Assembly (NCBI GenBank): GCA_030643485.1
Contig: DAOWLG010000041.1
Span: 1 to 35,009 of the forward strand
Length of the DNA: 35,009 nucleotides
Source of the DNA: Candidatus Nealsoniibacteriota bacterium
GTDB lineage: Bacteria > Patescibacteriota > Minisyncoccia > Minisyncoccales > JAGMDC01
Direction of reading: 5' to 3'
The position numbers and the translations under genes are program-made. This document shows, piece by piece, positions 9,006-13,019 of this stretch (position 1 is the first letter of the stretch; each line of letters begins with the position of its first letter). The notes below the pieces were generated by a model. The model saw only the letters and a program-made list of their open reading frames with translations, ran no database searches and was not told the DNA's origin.

Positions 9006-10604
9006 TCAGCGGTTTGAACAAAGATAATCTTTGTAATTTCCTAAATATTCCTTTAGGTTTTTGTTTTTAATCTCCCAAATCTTGTTGCACACTTTATTAA
9101 GGATATAGCGGTCATGAGAAACCAAAAGAATCGCGCCTTTGTATTCTTTCAGCATATTAGTCACAATTTCTTTGCTCGGAAGGTCTAAATGATTTGTCGG
9201 CTCGTCTAACACAAGGAAATCTGACTTTTGCAATATCAATTCAGCTAAAGCTACTCTTGCGCGTTCTCCCCCGCTCAACTGGTCAATTCTCTTGTTAGTT
9301 TCGTTTTGCGTGAACAAAAGACAGCCCAAAACATTTCTAATTTTTTCTTCATCTGGTATTGTTTTAGACGCTACTTCCTCTAATATAGTTTTTTCCGGGT
9401 CCAATTCCTCGTGCGCTTGCGCGTAATAACCGATTTTTAGTCCCTGCCCCAACACTAATTGAAAATTTTCAATTAGTGTGGGGGCTTGCCCTATTTTTAC
9501 CATTCCAGAAACTTTATTGTTCTTGTCTATAATGGTTTTTAACAAAGTTGACTTCCCCGCGCCATTATCACCTATAATTCCGATTTTATCTCCCCAGTTC
9601 ACCTCTATTCTGCCTTGCGCCTCAAACAAGCGCGATTGTCCGTTGTTGATAATCAAATCATTTATCTCTAATACCTTTGTACGGGTCTTTTCTATGTTGT
9701 CAAAAGTAATTTTGATATCCTTGCTTGTTTTCGGGTTTTCTAACTGTTCTATTTTCGCTAATTGTTTAATCCTGCCTTGAACCTGGCCCGCTATTGCCGC
9801 CTTATATCTGAAACGGTCAATAAATACCTGTTGTTTCTTAAAATACTTTTGCTGATTTTTGTAATTTTTTTCTTGTATTTCAACGCGTTTTTCTTTTTCT
9901 TTTATGTATTCAGAATAAGGGCAGTAATACTTCTGCAGCCCTTGTTTTGTCAGTTCAAATGTCTTGCCGCACATCTTATCTAAAAATAATCTATCGTGAG
10001 ACACGCATATTATTGTCTTATTCCAATTCAACAAAAATTGTTCCAGCCATTCTATTGTTCTTAAATCAAGATGGTTTGTCGGTTCGTCTAAAATCAATAA
10101 ATTTGGTTTAGAAACCAAAATCTTAGCAATCGCTAATTTTGTCCGTTCTCCGCCGCTTAATGTTTTAATTTCTCTTTGCCAAAATTGCTCTGAAAAACCA
10201 AAACTTTCTAAAAGATTTTGCACTAATCCTTTGTAGCGATGGCTATCCAATTTTATTGCTTCCGTATTAACTAAACGCATTTCTTGTAAAAGCGTGTTTT
10301 GAAGAGATTTCCAATGCGTCTCTTGCGGCAGATATCCTATTTTTAGATTTTTGTTTTTAATGATATTCCCTTGGTCTGCTTCCTCTATTCCTATAATTAT
10401 TTTCAAAAGCGCGCTTTTGCCTATTCCATTTGCTCCAACAATAGCGATTCTATCATTGGAATTTAATGTTAAATCAACACCTGAAAACAGCTCCTTTGCT
10501 TCATAGGATTTTGAAATATCGCGAAGAACCAATAAAGGATTTTTAATTTTCCCTAATGAATTCTCGCAAAAAAATCTTGGAATTTCTATTTTATTTTTGT
10601 TCAT
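9006..10604 (-). CDS. ABC-F family ribosome-associated ATPase
   Basis: ABC-F proteins have two ATPase domains and no membrane part; they act in the ribosomal E site as translation factors or as antibiotic-resistance proteins. The first domain shows GANGIGKSA, LSGGERTKLA and LLILDEPTNHLD; the second shows GDNGAGKST, LSGGERARVA and FLVLDEPTNHLD. A basic, lysine-rich linker lies between them near residues 220-290, the position of the P-site tRNA interaction motif. There are 532 residues. The leader upstream contains a consensus promoter, a 16-codon uORF and a terminator hairpin, the arrangement known for drug-inducible ABC-F genes. Subfamily (EttA, Uup or resistance type) cannot be settled by eye. 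Confidence 0.9.
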   Translation of the reverse strand: MNKNKIEIPRFFCENSLGKIKNPLLVLRDISKSYEAKELFSGVDLTLNSNDRIAIVGANGIGKSALLKIIIGIEEADQGNIIKNKNLKIGYLPQETHWKSLQNTLLQEMRLVNTEAIKLDSHRYKGLVQNLLESFGFSEQFWQREIKTLSGGERTKLAIAKILVSKPNLLILDEPTNHLDLRTIEWLEQFLLNWNKTIICVSHDRLFLDKMCGKTFELTKQGLQKYYCPYSEYIKEKEKRVEIQEKNYKNQQKYFKKQQVFIDRFRYKAAIAGQVQGRIKQLAKIEQLENPKTSKDIKITFDNIEKTRTKVLEINDLIINNGQSRLFEAQGRIEVNWGDKIGIIGDNGAGKSTLLKTIIDKNNKVSGMVKIGQAPTLIENFQLVLGQGLKIGYYAQAHEELDPEKTILEEVASKTIPDEEKIRNVLGCLLFTQNETNKRIDQLSGGERARVALAELILQKSDFLVLDEPTNHLDLPSKEIVTNMLKEYKGAILLVSHDRYILNKVCNKIWEIKNKNLKEYLGNYKDYLCSNR

Positions 10605-10614
10605 ATTTATTCAT

Positions 10615-10700
10615 AAAAAAAACAGGGATTAAGTAATTAATACTATACAAAAGCCAAAAATATAGTCGTTTTCGGCTATTTGTAGACAATTATTTCCCTG
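10615..10700 (-). terminator. Leader terminator (attenuator) of the ABC-F gene
   Basis: On the minus strand the leader folds with CAGGGA (10695-10700) against TCCCTG (10623-10628). Further in, CTACAAATAGCC opposes GGCTTTTGTATAG. A run of eight T (10615-10622) follows directly, ten bases before the ABC-F ATG. A transcript stopping here would not include the gene. The 5' arm begins immediately after the uORF stop codon, so a ribosome held at the end of the uORF would block the hairpin. Confidence 0.75.
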
Positions 10701-10751
10701 CTAAATCGTCCTTGTATATTCTATTTCTATTGTTTGAACAAAACTTTTCAT
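10701..10751 (-). CDS. Putative 16-residue leader peptide (uORF) of the ABC-F gene
   Basis: The ATG at 10751 opens the reading frame MKSFVQTIEIEYTRTI and stops with TAG at 10701-10703, directly against the 5' arm of the terminator stem. The -10 hexamer TAATAT ends 8 bases before this ATG, so the uORF would be translated from a leaderless or nearly leaderless mRNA. It is too short for the ORF track. The likely role is ribosome-mediated attenuation. Confidence 0.65.
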   Translation of the reverse strand: MKSFVQTIEIEYTRTI

Positions 10752-10759
10752 TATTATTC

Positions 10760-10787
10760 ATATTACGCAAATTAAAAATTATGTCAA
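10760..10787 (-). promoter_or_regulatory. Promoter of the ABC-F leader
   Basis: On the minus strand TTGACA (complement of 10782-10787), a 16-base spacer and TAATAT (10760-10765) are nearly perfect sigma70-type elements. The -35 hexamer is one half of the mirrored ATGTCAA/TTGACAT repeat shared with the hicBA promoter. Confidence 0.8.
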
Positions 10788-10798
10788 TCTCAACAGGG

Positions 10799-10827
10799 TT
10801 GACATAAATTTTGAAAAAGAATATGAT
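10799..10827 (+). promoter_or_regulatory. Promoter of hicBA
   Basis: TTGACA (10799-10804), a 17-base spacer and TATGAT (10822-10827) precede the hicB ATG by 27 bases. It diverges from the ABC-F promoter. The two -35 hexamers lie in a perfect inverted repeat, ATGTCAA-N11-TTGACAT (10781-10805), a plausible shared operator. Confidence 0.8.
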
Positions 10828-10854: not shown

Positions 10855-11112
10855 ATGCTTACTAATTACATTTCTCAAAAATTAGCGATAGCTCGCTATA
10901 AAATTTTAGAAGATGGAACTTATTTTGGTGAAATTCCCGGACTTCAGGGCGTTTGGGCTTCGGAAAAAACTCTGGAAAAGTGCAGAATAACTCTTTGCGA
11001 GGTTTTAGAAGAATGGCTCATTCTAAAATTACAAGACGGAGATAAAATTCCGGAATTTTCAATTAAAATTAACCATAAAGTTAAACAAATATCTATACCT
11101 GTATATGCCTAA
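10855..11112 (+). CDS. hicB: HicB-like antitoxin
   Basis: HicB neutralises the RNase HicA. The sequence DGTYFGEIPGLQGVWA, then TLEKCR, EVLEEW and GDKIP follows the HicB partial RNase H-like fold. At 85 residues it stops before the C-terminal DNA-binding domain (HTH or ribbon-helix-helix) present in longer HicBs, so autorepression by HicB alone is doubtful. It overlaps hicA by 8 bases and the pair reads from a consensus promoter. The order antitoxin then toxin is the reverse of the E. coli hicAB order but common elsewhere. Confidence 0.9.
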   Translation: MLTNYISQKLAIARYKILEDGTYFGEIPGLQGVWASEKTLEKCRITLCEVLEEWLILKLQDGDKIPEFSIKINHKVKQISIPVYA

Positions 11113-11317
11113 AAATATCTCATGGAGAAAATTAGTCCAAAATTTCAGAAAATTAGGCTTTGAAGGACCTTATAGTGGCGGTAGACATCAATTTATGAAA
11201 AAAGGTTCTCTTAAAATTCACATACCGTCTAAACATAAAAATAATATTAGCGTTGGATTAGTTAATGAAATTTTAAAACAAGCAGAAATAAGCAAGGAAG
11301 AATGGGACAACCTTTAA
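11105..11317 (+). CDS. hicA: HicA-like mRNA interferase toxin
   Basis: HicA is a small double-stranded-RNA-binding-like RNase that cleaves mRNA and tmRNA. The 70-residue product has the expected order: LVQNFRKLGF, GGRHQFM with the catalytic histidine position, IHIPSKHKN, and a final EILKQAEISKEEW helix. Length is typical. It is co-transcribed with hicB and followed within 35 bases by an intrinsic terminator. Confidence 0.92.
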   Translation: MPKNISWRKLVQNFRKLGFEGPYSGGRHQFMKKGSLKIHIPSKHKNNISVGLVNEILKQAEISKEEWDNL

Positions 11318-12372: not shown

Positions 12373-12400
12373 TTGACAAAAATTTTGAGGTTGCTATAAT
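12373..12400 (+). promoter_or_regulatory. Promoter of the small RNA, with palindromic bidirectional -10
   Basis: TTGACA (12373-12378), a 16-base spacer and TATAAT (12395-12400) form a perfect promoter on the plus strand. The -10 is half of the palindrome CTATAAT-g-ATTATAG (12394-12408), so the minus strand also reads TATAAT, with TTGTCC 15 bases upstream of it. That could serve the DUF4268 gene. Confidence 0.8.
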
Positions 12401-12406
12401 GATTAT

Positions 12407-12506
12407 AGAAACAAGGCATCGGGGACAAATCTCCGTGTGAGAAAGTTCTGATTTTTCAGGACTACCCGGTAACCTGACCACCCACAAGCTGGGTGGTTAT
12501 TTTTTT
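12407..12506 (+). ncRNA. Putative small RNA convergent with the DUF3800 gene
   Basis: An unannotated transcript of about 100 nt is predicted by a perfect promoter (12373-12400) and a strong terminator, ACCACCCA-caagc-TGGGTGGT then TATTTTTTT (12477-12506). Between them I can fold CGGGGA-caaa-TCTCCG (12420-12435) and AGTTCTGA-tttt-TCAGGACT, plus an alternative pairing of ATCGGG with CCCGGT. No convincing ORF lies within. It matches none of the RNA families I know (6S, SRP, tmRNA, common riboswitches). Its 3' end is antisense to the last codons of the DUF3800 gene. Confidence 0.65.
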
Positions 12507-13019
12507 ACTGGCTAATTTATATAATTCTTTTGCTTTAGTATTGCTTGTGTCATTCCAATAAGCCCTAATCAAACCTGCATAAGCATCGGCTAACCTCAAA
12601 CAAGGAAATGCTTTATCGTCACCGGTTCTTATTTTTTTAACTGAAATTCCGCGATTTCGTAAAATCTTTTTCAGTCGCAACGCATACCATTTTGGCTTTT
12701 TGCCATCTATAACTATTTTTCTAATTTTCCTCTCTATTAACAAGGATTTGAGCGCTTCTTCAAAACTATCTTCGCTAAAAGGATTTTTGATTATTGCTGC
12801 TTTAACTGAAAAATTTTCTTTGATTAGAGCCTTGATAAAATTAAATCTAATTTTCCAAATATGCCGTGGCCAATGAAAGCTCGTTATTTTCAACATTTTT
12901 TCTGTATTTAATATCGCCTTTTCAATATTTTCTATATCTTCAATCATAACATAAACCAATGCCACTGAAGACTGGCCGTCTTTTTTATGAACCCCTGATT
13001 CATCAATAAAAATTAACAT
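12462..13019 (-). CDS. DUF3800 protein (RNase H-like fold)
   Basis: The protein starts with MLIFIDESGVHK, the hallmark D-E-S-G strand of DUF3800. It has a second acidic strand (IRKIVIDGKKP) and a final RLADAYAGL, giving the spaced acidic residues of an RNase H/transposase-like fold. The last residues (ITTQLVGGQVTG) are encoded within the small-RNA terminator hairpin on the other strand. The gene begins 8 bases after the secF stop, so it is the last gene of the htrA-secD-secF unit. The family's biochemical role is unknown; nuclease activity is an inference from the fold. Confidence 0.8.
   Translation of the reverse strand: MLIFIDESGVHKKDGQSSVALVYVMIEDIENIEKAILNTEKMLKITSFHWPRHIWKIRFNFIKALIKENFSVKAAIIKNPFSEDSFEEALKSLLIERKIRKIVIDGKKPKWYALRLKKILRNRGISVKKIRTGDDKAFPCLRLADAYAGLIRAYWNDTSNTKAKELYKLASKKITTQLVGGQVTG
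12477..12506 (+). terminator. Terminator of the small RNA
   Basis: The eight-base-pair stem ACCACCCA/TGGGTGGT with a five-base loop is followed by TATTTTTTT. On the opposite strand the hairpin lies inside the final codons of the DUF3800 gene (reading TTQLVGG). Confidence 0.85.

Follow-up and report, generated by a model that had tools for sequence, protein, structure and literature searches.

The ABC-F locus

The window, a stretch of 35,009 nucleotides on contig DAOWLG010000041.1 of a Candidatus Nealsoniibacteriota bacterium, carries on its minus strand a gene for an ABC-F ATPase, preceded by a promoter, a short uORF, and a hairpin that ends in a run of U (Table 1). Divergent from this leader, a HicB-like (UPF0150)/HicA gene pair lies on the plus strand at 10855-11317. 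The ABC-F protein scores 537.8 bits (cutoff 380) against NF000355, the ribosomal protection-like ABC-F model and the sole ABC-F model that it passes. Specifically, it remains below every cutoff for the named resistance subfamilies (Vga, Msr, Lsa, Sal, OptrA, CplR and others), with scores of 320.9 against 725 for Vga, 309.8 against 780 for CplR, and 306.1 against 680 for Msr. The best PDB matches are YheS, EttA, and YbiT, followed by VmlR. A role of this ABC-F in antibiotic resistance is thus conjectural.

Table 1. Features of the ABC-F gene and its leader, in window positions
Feature	Position	Strand	Basis or detail
Promoter TTGACA-N16-TAATAT (-35, 10787-10782; -10, 10765-10760)	10760..10787	-	14-mer TTGACATAATTTTT identical in 5 loci
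uORF MKSFVQTIEIEYTRTI, 16 codons, predicted leaderless (ATG at 10751; stop TAG 10703-10701); expected RNA start 0-2 nt 5' of ATG	10701..10751	-	Five leaders compared: indels in frame, pN/pS about 0.46
Terminator 5' arm AGCAGGGA, which shares bases with the uORF stop	10695..10702	-	CAGGG in 10/12 order orthologues
Inner hairpin inside the closing helix	10646..10684	-	Folding
Terminator 3' arm UCCCUGUU	10621..10628	-	Folding
U8 tract	10615..10622	-	Read from sequence; at least 6 T in all type A orthologues
Out-of-frame ATG with 7-codon mini-ORF (MNKYEQK, then stop), directly 3' of the U tract	10591..10614	-	Read from sequence
ABC-F ATPase gene, 532 aa, proposed target of the leader	9006..10604	-	Pfam ABC_tran x2 and ABC_tran_Xtn; NF000355

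An earlier, sequence-only reading of this DNA described the promoter as near-perfect. The two boxes and their 16-nucleotide spacing are present, but the description is too generous: 10 of 12 bases match consensus, and the -10 box matches at only four of six. Promoter-like matches in the region show no excess over shuffled sequence (47 versus 42.9). The same reading placed the uORF correctly, with its ATG 8 nucleotides 3' of the -10 box at the head of a 16-codon frame and its stop codon touching the 5' arm of the hairpin. Indeed, the TAG abuts CAGGGA (10700-10695) with no gap, and the closing helix AGCAGGGA/UCCCUGUU, of 8 bp, takes in two bases of the stop codon. CAGGGA and UCCCUG are spaced by 66 nucleotides, and UCCCUG together with the U tract spans 10628-10615.

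Folding, which had been proposed as a check, bears the hairpin out. The 149-nucleotide leader folds at -29.1 kcal/mol, three standard deviations better than the shuffle mean of -19.0, and one of 200 shuffles folds equally well; the segment from the stop codon to the U tract has a fold z of -3.6. Eight T do stand where the reading saw them, but the ATG that adjoins them is out of frame, and the ABC-F gene starts 10 nucleotides further 3'. In two orthologues, L004 and L005, the U-run touches the ABC-F ATG itself. An Rfam scan of the leader returned nothing at the gathering threshold, and the matches below it were at chance level. A uORF of at least 13 codons that ends no more than 7 nucleotides from the arm arises in shuffles of the window leader alone with a frequency of 0.056. 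Because the match to a promoter and the placement of the uORF are, by themselves, near chance level, the case beyond chance rests on comparison with relatives.

Type A leaders in close relatives

Twelve of the 247 genomes sampled from the order carry a close ABC-F orthologue. In four of them (G001, G002, and G003, from the window's family, and G015, from another), the orthologue is 82-83% identical, and all four share the window's leader. The five aligned uORF peptides, that of the window (MKSFVQTIEIEYTRTI) and those of these relatives (MMKTFVQIEYTRAI, MMKVFIQTIEYTRAI, MMEIFVRTIEYSRAC, and VTKMFVQTIEYMRSC), differ by whole-codon indels, with a pooled pS of 0.39 and pN of 0.18. The C terminus of the window peptide is conserved as IEY-x-R-x-(I/C) followed by the stop. 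All five loci agree in the first 14 bases counted from the -35 box, and DNA homology extends from that box, or at most 6 nucleotides before it, to near the ABC-F stop codon. Thus, the loci have in common a single block of promoter, leader, and gene, and the DNA around it differs.

The terminator recurs beyond these closest relatives. The pattern CAGGG-N46..76-CCCTGT6 occurs at 23 places in the 247 genomes; 10 of these precede close ABC-F genes, which gives 10 of the 12 orthologues in the order. A uORF of at least 13 codons stops 0-5 nucleotides before CAGGG at 10 of 10 ABC-F sites and at none of the 13 other matches. Five divergent type A members, whose proteins are 52-58% identical, encode the peptides MSKRKDSSSQLEYIVAM, MSKRKDQSSQIEYIVAM, MKIFFDYQETKLTM, MKVFFDEQEYKLLA, and MKYQIDNKPETKLCM. 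In one type A leader, L033, the arms read CAGGGG/CCCCTG in place of CAGGGA/TCCCTG, a compensated pair; the core CAGGG/CCCTG pairs are invariant, and covariation within type A consists of this one pair. Alignment with orthologous leaders had been suggested as a check, with loci lacking both uORF and terminator counting against attenuation. Only two such loci appear: L006, which has a short terminator only and no evident uORF, and L031, which has neither a CAGGG terminator nor a uORF and whose leader is of unclear type.

Other leader types in the class

Another 13 genomes from this class supplied 14 more ABC-F copies (48-56% identical), three of them cut by contig ends. Nine class orthologues (48-55% identical) possess leader peptides unrelated in sequence, and in these the last codons or the stop form the 5' arm of a terminator. 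Type B, with seven loci, has peptides such as MNKFIPKSNNIYASRIMGCVIMYIRTKPVK and, in L142, MKIYNLQLTKNMEVDEMTGTVVVLSAETC; the last codons, in some loci together with the stop, pair with AGCAGGTTTTTT, and the arms covary (CCTGT/GCAGG, CCTAC/GTAGG, and CCTGC/GCAGG). Type C, with two loci, has the peptide MQTEITNNSIFQSQIMDKLVSYEKEAGF, whose KEA codons pair with GCCTC before the U-run. Type D (L143 and L144) has a conserved uORF, MTFRQY(Y/H)KILTDCLE(G/S) and stop, ahead of the ABC-F gene; it shows no clear terminator and is not counted as an attenuator. In three leader types, pN/pS is 0.46, 0.53, and 0.30, and uORF indels are in frame. No stalling motif is common to the peptides across types.

Among 23 readable copies, 19 have both uORF and terminator, two have a uORF only, and two have neither; the 19 leaders are not phylogenetically independent and represent perhaps six or seven independent cases. 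In the tree, type A falls inside one group of 12 rows that includes both exceptions (support 97), and types C and D each occupy a single branch. A phylum-wide draw of 380 genomes yielded no additional close orthologue at E 1e-90 or better, and viral contigs contained neither a relative of the ABC-F nor the leader pattern. Separately, we note that otherwise unrelated type B and C leaders (L151, L152; L140, L145-L150) have in common GTGNATTGT, then a T-rich stretch, after the uORF stop.

The position of the arm relative to the uORF end ranges, in these leaders, from 18 nucleotides before to about 11 nucleotides after the stop. Forcing the stretch that a stop-codon ribosome would cover to stay unpaired has a computed cost of 10-27 kcal/mol in 19 of 19 leaders; unmasked, each of the 19 folds 2.5-7.7 standard deviations better than shuffles (z -2.5 to -7.7). 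We also applied a mechanical test, namely a helix plus T-run with the uORF stop inside the footprint window. Over its settings, this test selects 10-13 of the 23 orthologues and 3-6 of 282 genes from a stretch of a same-family genome in which the copy of this ABC-F gene also lies. Of 48 generic ABC-F genes kept as controls, it selects 1-2; these come from a contig scan with an ABC-F alignment, are recognized by LDEPTNHL only, and are 30-40% identical.

Predicted leaderless starts

The -10 box lies 8 nucleotides from the uORF start codon in the window and 5-8 nucleotides from it in three close relatives. L004 and L005 have two ATGs side by side, with the -10 box 5 nucleotides ahead of the first; in L003, the start codon is a GTG, 7-8 nucleotides from the box. 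From these distances, a leaderless uORF start is predicted in the window and the three relatives. The feature is not universal in the family: in L002, L034, and L035, the gap is longer or bears a Shine-Dalgarno sequence, with AAGGA or AGGAG ahead of the uORF in L034 and L035. Given this Shine-Dalgarno-like sequence, a leaderless start is not required by the switch.

The leaderless leader peptide proposed by the sequence-only reading fits these distances, but it would not be unusual. We surveyed 155 intergenic gene starts in 320 kb of the same-family genome G003 (L153-L168). Hexamers resembling a -10 box peak 6 nucleotides before the start, where 20 of 155 genes have one; most other positions have about 2-3. 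A Shine-Dalgarno-like sequence precedes only 20 of the 155 starts. Thus, leaderless starts appear ordinary in this lineage. There is also precedent for a leaderless short ORF as an attenuator, in mycobacteria (Canestrari 2020, as cited in PMC9094748).

Proposed mechanism and alternatives

In the sequences compared, the uORF and the terminator are conserved, as is the distance between them. Because this geometry persists in relatives whose leader peptides differ, the window leader is very probably a ribosome-mediated transcription attenuator of the ABC-F gene, of the vmlR/msrD/vgaA kind, and the proposal of the sequence-only reading gains strong support from the 19 of 23 orthologues. Judging from the promoter, RNA polymerase would start at the uORF ATG or no more than about 2 nucleotides from it, and ribosomes would translate a leader peptide of 14-17 codons. 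If the leader were untranslated, or if ribosomes finished and left quickly, CAGGGA would pair with UCCCUG, as folding predicts, and transcription would stop before the ABC-F gene. A ribosome pausing on the last codons or the stop would instead lay its footprint over CAGGGA; the closing helix would not form, polymerase would read through, and ABC-F would be made. Since a ribosome at the end of the uORF would always cover the arm, a pause there should permit read-through. The inducer would then likely be stalled translation, brought about by a ribosome-targeting compound or by an intrinsically stalling nascent chain. A drug is a plausible signal and, by analogy, so is intrinsic stalling that the ABC-F itself would relieve.

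The latter notion leads to the most serious alternative, in which the attenuator is the same and the signal is ABC-F activity: the leader would stall intrinsically, ABC-F would rescue the ribosome, and falling activity would raise transcription of its own gene in a negative feedback. When MsrD is expressed, induction through the MsrD leader, a peptide that stalls at its stop codon, is suppressed (PMC10314930), and EttA acts on ribosomes translating MgtL (PMC11282234). In every leader, a ribosome at the stop codon would cover the arm, which suits such a loop, whereas the lack of a common stalling motif among the leader types does not. We regard this feedback as possible, though not as the reading to be preferred.

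Polarity could also be reversed, such that uORF translation would be needed for termination. This has been suggested for lmrC, in which loss of the uORF2 start codon leads to constitutive expression (PMC8546547). Here, the 5' arm itself would be hidden under a ribosome at the end of the uORF, which predicts the reverse, and no competing upstream antiterminator helix is evident; reversed polarity is thus unlikely. Slimmer still are the prospects of a terminator that simply stops transcription arriving from upstream or shields the ABC-F gene, with a uORF present by chance and the ABC-F promoter elsewhere. The shuffle frequency of the single window leader permits such a coincidence at one locus. 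However, the promoter, flanked by the terminator on one side and by hicBA, on the opposite strand, on the other, is conserved along with the terminator; all 10 type A leaders preserve both the uORF peptide and its position; and other class members place different uORFs at the same site. Equally improbable is a classical amino-acid-starvation attenuator, in which stalling at hungry codons frees the terminator, for although the uORF-terminator architecture is common to the trp/his/ilv type, none of the leaders is enriched in a single amino acid, the gene that follows encodes a translation factor and not a biosynthetic enzyme, and neither stop-distant regulatory codons nor an alternative antiterminator hairpin is evident.

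Building on ribosome-mediated attenuation, we speculate, with considerable reserve, about a larger history. In our sample, this ABC-F clade is confined to one class of small-genome bacteria. There, leader-peptide attenuators may be near-universal, with peptide and terminator repeatedly replaced while the rule that the uORF end falls on the arm is kept. The promoter, leader, and gene of the window's group would travel as a portable cassette, and the ABC-F would clear ribosomes from its own leader, closing the loop. This composite picture strikes us as rather doubtful.

Relation to known attenuators

The nearest counterpart is msrD of Streptococcus, in which a ribosome stalled at the stop codon of MsrDL (MYLIFM, then stop) blocks terminator formation (PMC10314930). 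Both systems place a short uORF and a terminator before an ABC-F gene and employ stop-codon ribosome logic that ends in read-through, which here is predicted. In msrD, by contrast, the macrolide inducer and the stall are experimental; the window has another peptide, a predicted leaderless start, and an uncharacterized ABC-F clade. The vmlR gene of Bacillus subtilis likewise combines a uORF, an intrinsic terminator, and an ABC-F gene, and uORF translation is needed for its induction (PMC9226507). Its uORF has three codons, its Shine-Dalgarno sequence lies inside an anti-antiterminator helix, and its antiterminator is separate (PMC9226507), whereas the uORF end at our locus directly overlaps or abuts the terminator arm, a simpler design. 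Ribosome-mediated attenuation of ABC-F genes extends to vga(A), as cited in PMC10314930, and to lmrC (PMC8546547), in other hosts and other ABC-F subfamilies. The unusual polarity of lmrC warns that polarity needs measuring (PMC8546547). The mycobacterial polycysteine uORFs also use a leaderless short ORF as an attenuator, but, according to PMC9094748, they sense cysteine supply and control operonic genes, not ABC-F genes.

The ABC-F attenuators named in the cited papers belong to Firmicutes and Streptomyces; the same logic appears here in an apparently uncultured lineage with reduced genomes. Our literature search, which covered few subscription journals, found no paper linking ABC-F or leader-peptide attenuation with candidate phyla. 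In this lineage, leader peptides have been exchanged while the geometric rule stayed the same, and some members have predicted leaderless starts. The attenuator suggests that such cells meet ribosome stalling or ribosome-targeting compounds in nature, and it offers a natural set of leader peptides for finding stalls, or drugs, that an ABC-F relieves.

Neighboring elements

An inverted repeat, TATGTCAA (10780-10787) and TTGACATA (10799-10806), spans the -35 boxes of both the ABC-F leader and hicBA. Given this repeat, the two promoters may compete or may have a common operator. We rejected the idea that ABC-F is controlled chiefly from the divergent promoter of hicBA, because hicBA lies outside the conserved unit.

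Two genomes from different families have in common a second stretch, of 87% identity (L004:3594-4545 and L005:1-952), close to the ABC-F unit; it lies downstream of the unit in one and upstream in the other, which suggests shared mobile surroundings. Finally, the window encodes a DUF3800-II RNA (RF02961, 66.9 bits) at 12373-12499 on the plus strand, with its own terminator and a 12/12 promoter, TTGACA-16-TATAAT. This RNA adjoins, in opposite orientation, a DUF3800 gene on the minus strand (12462-13019).
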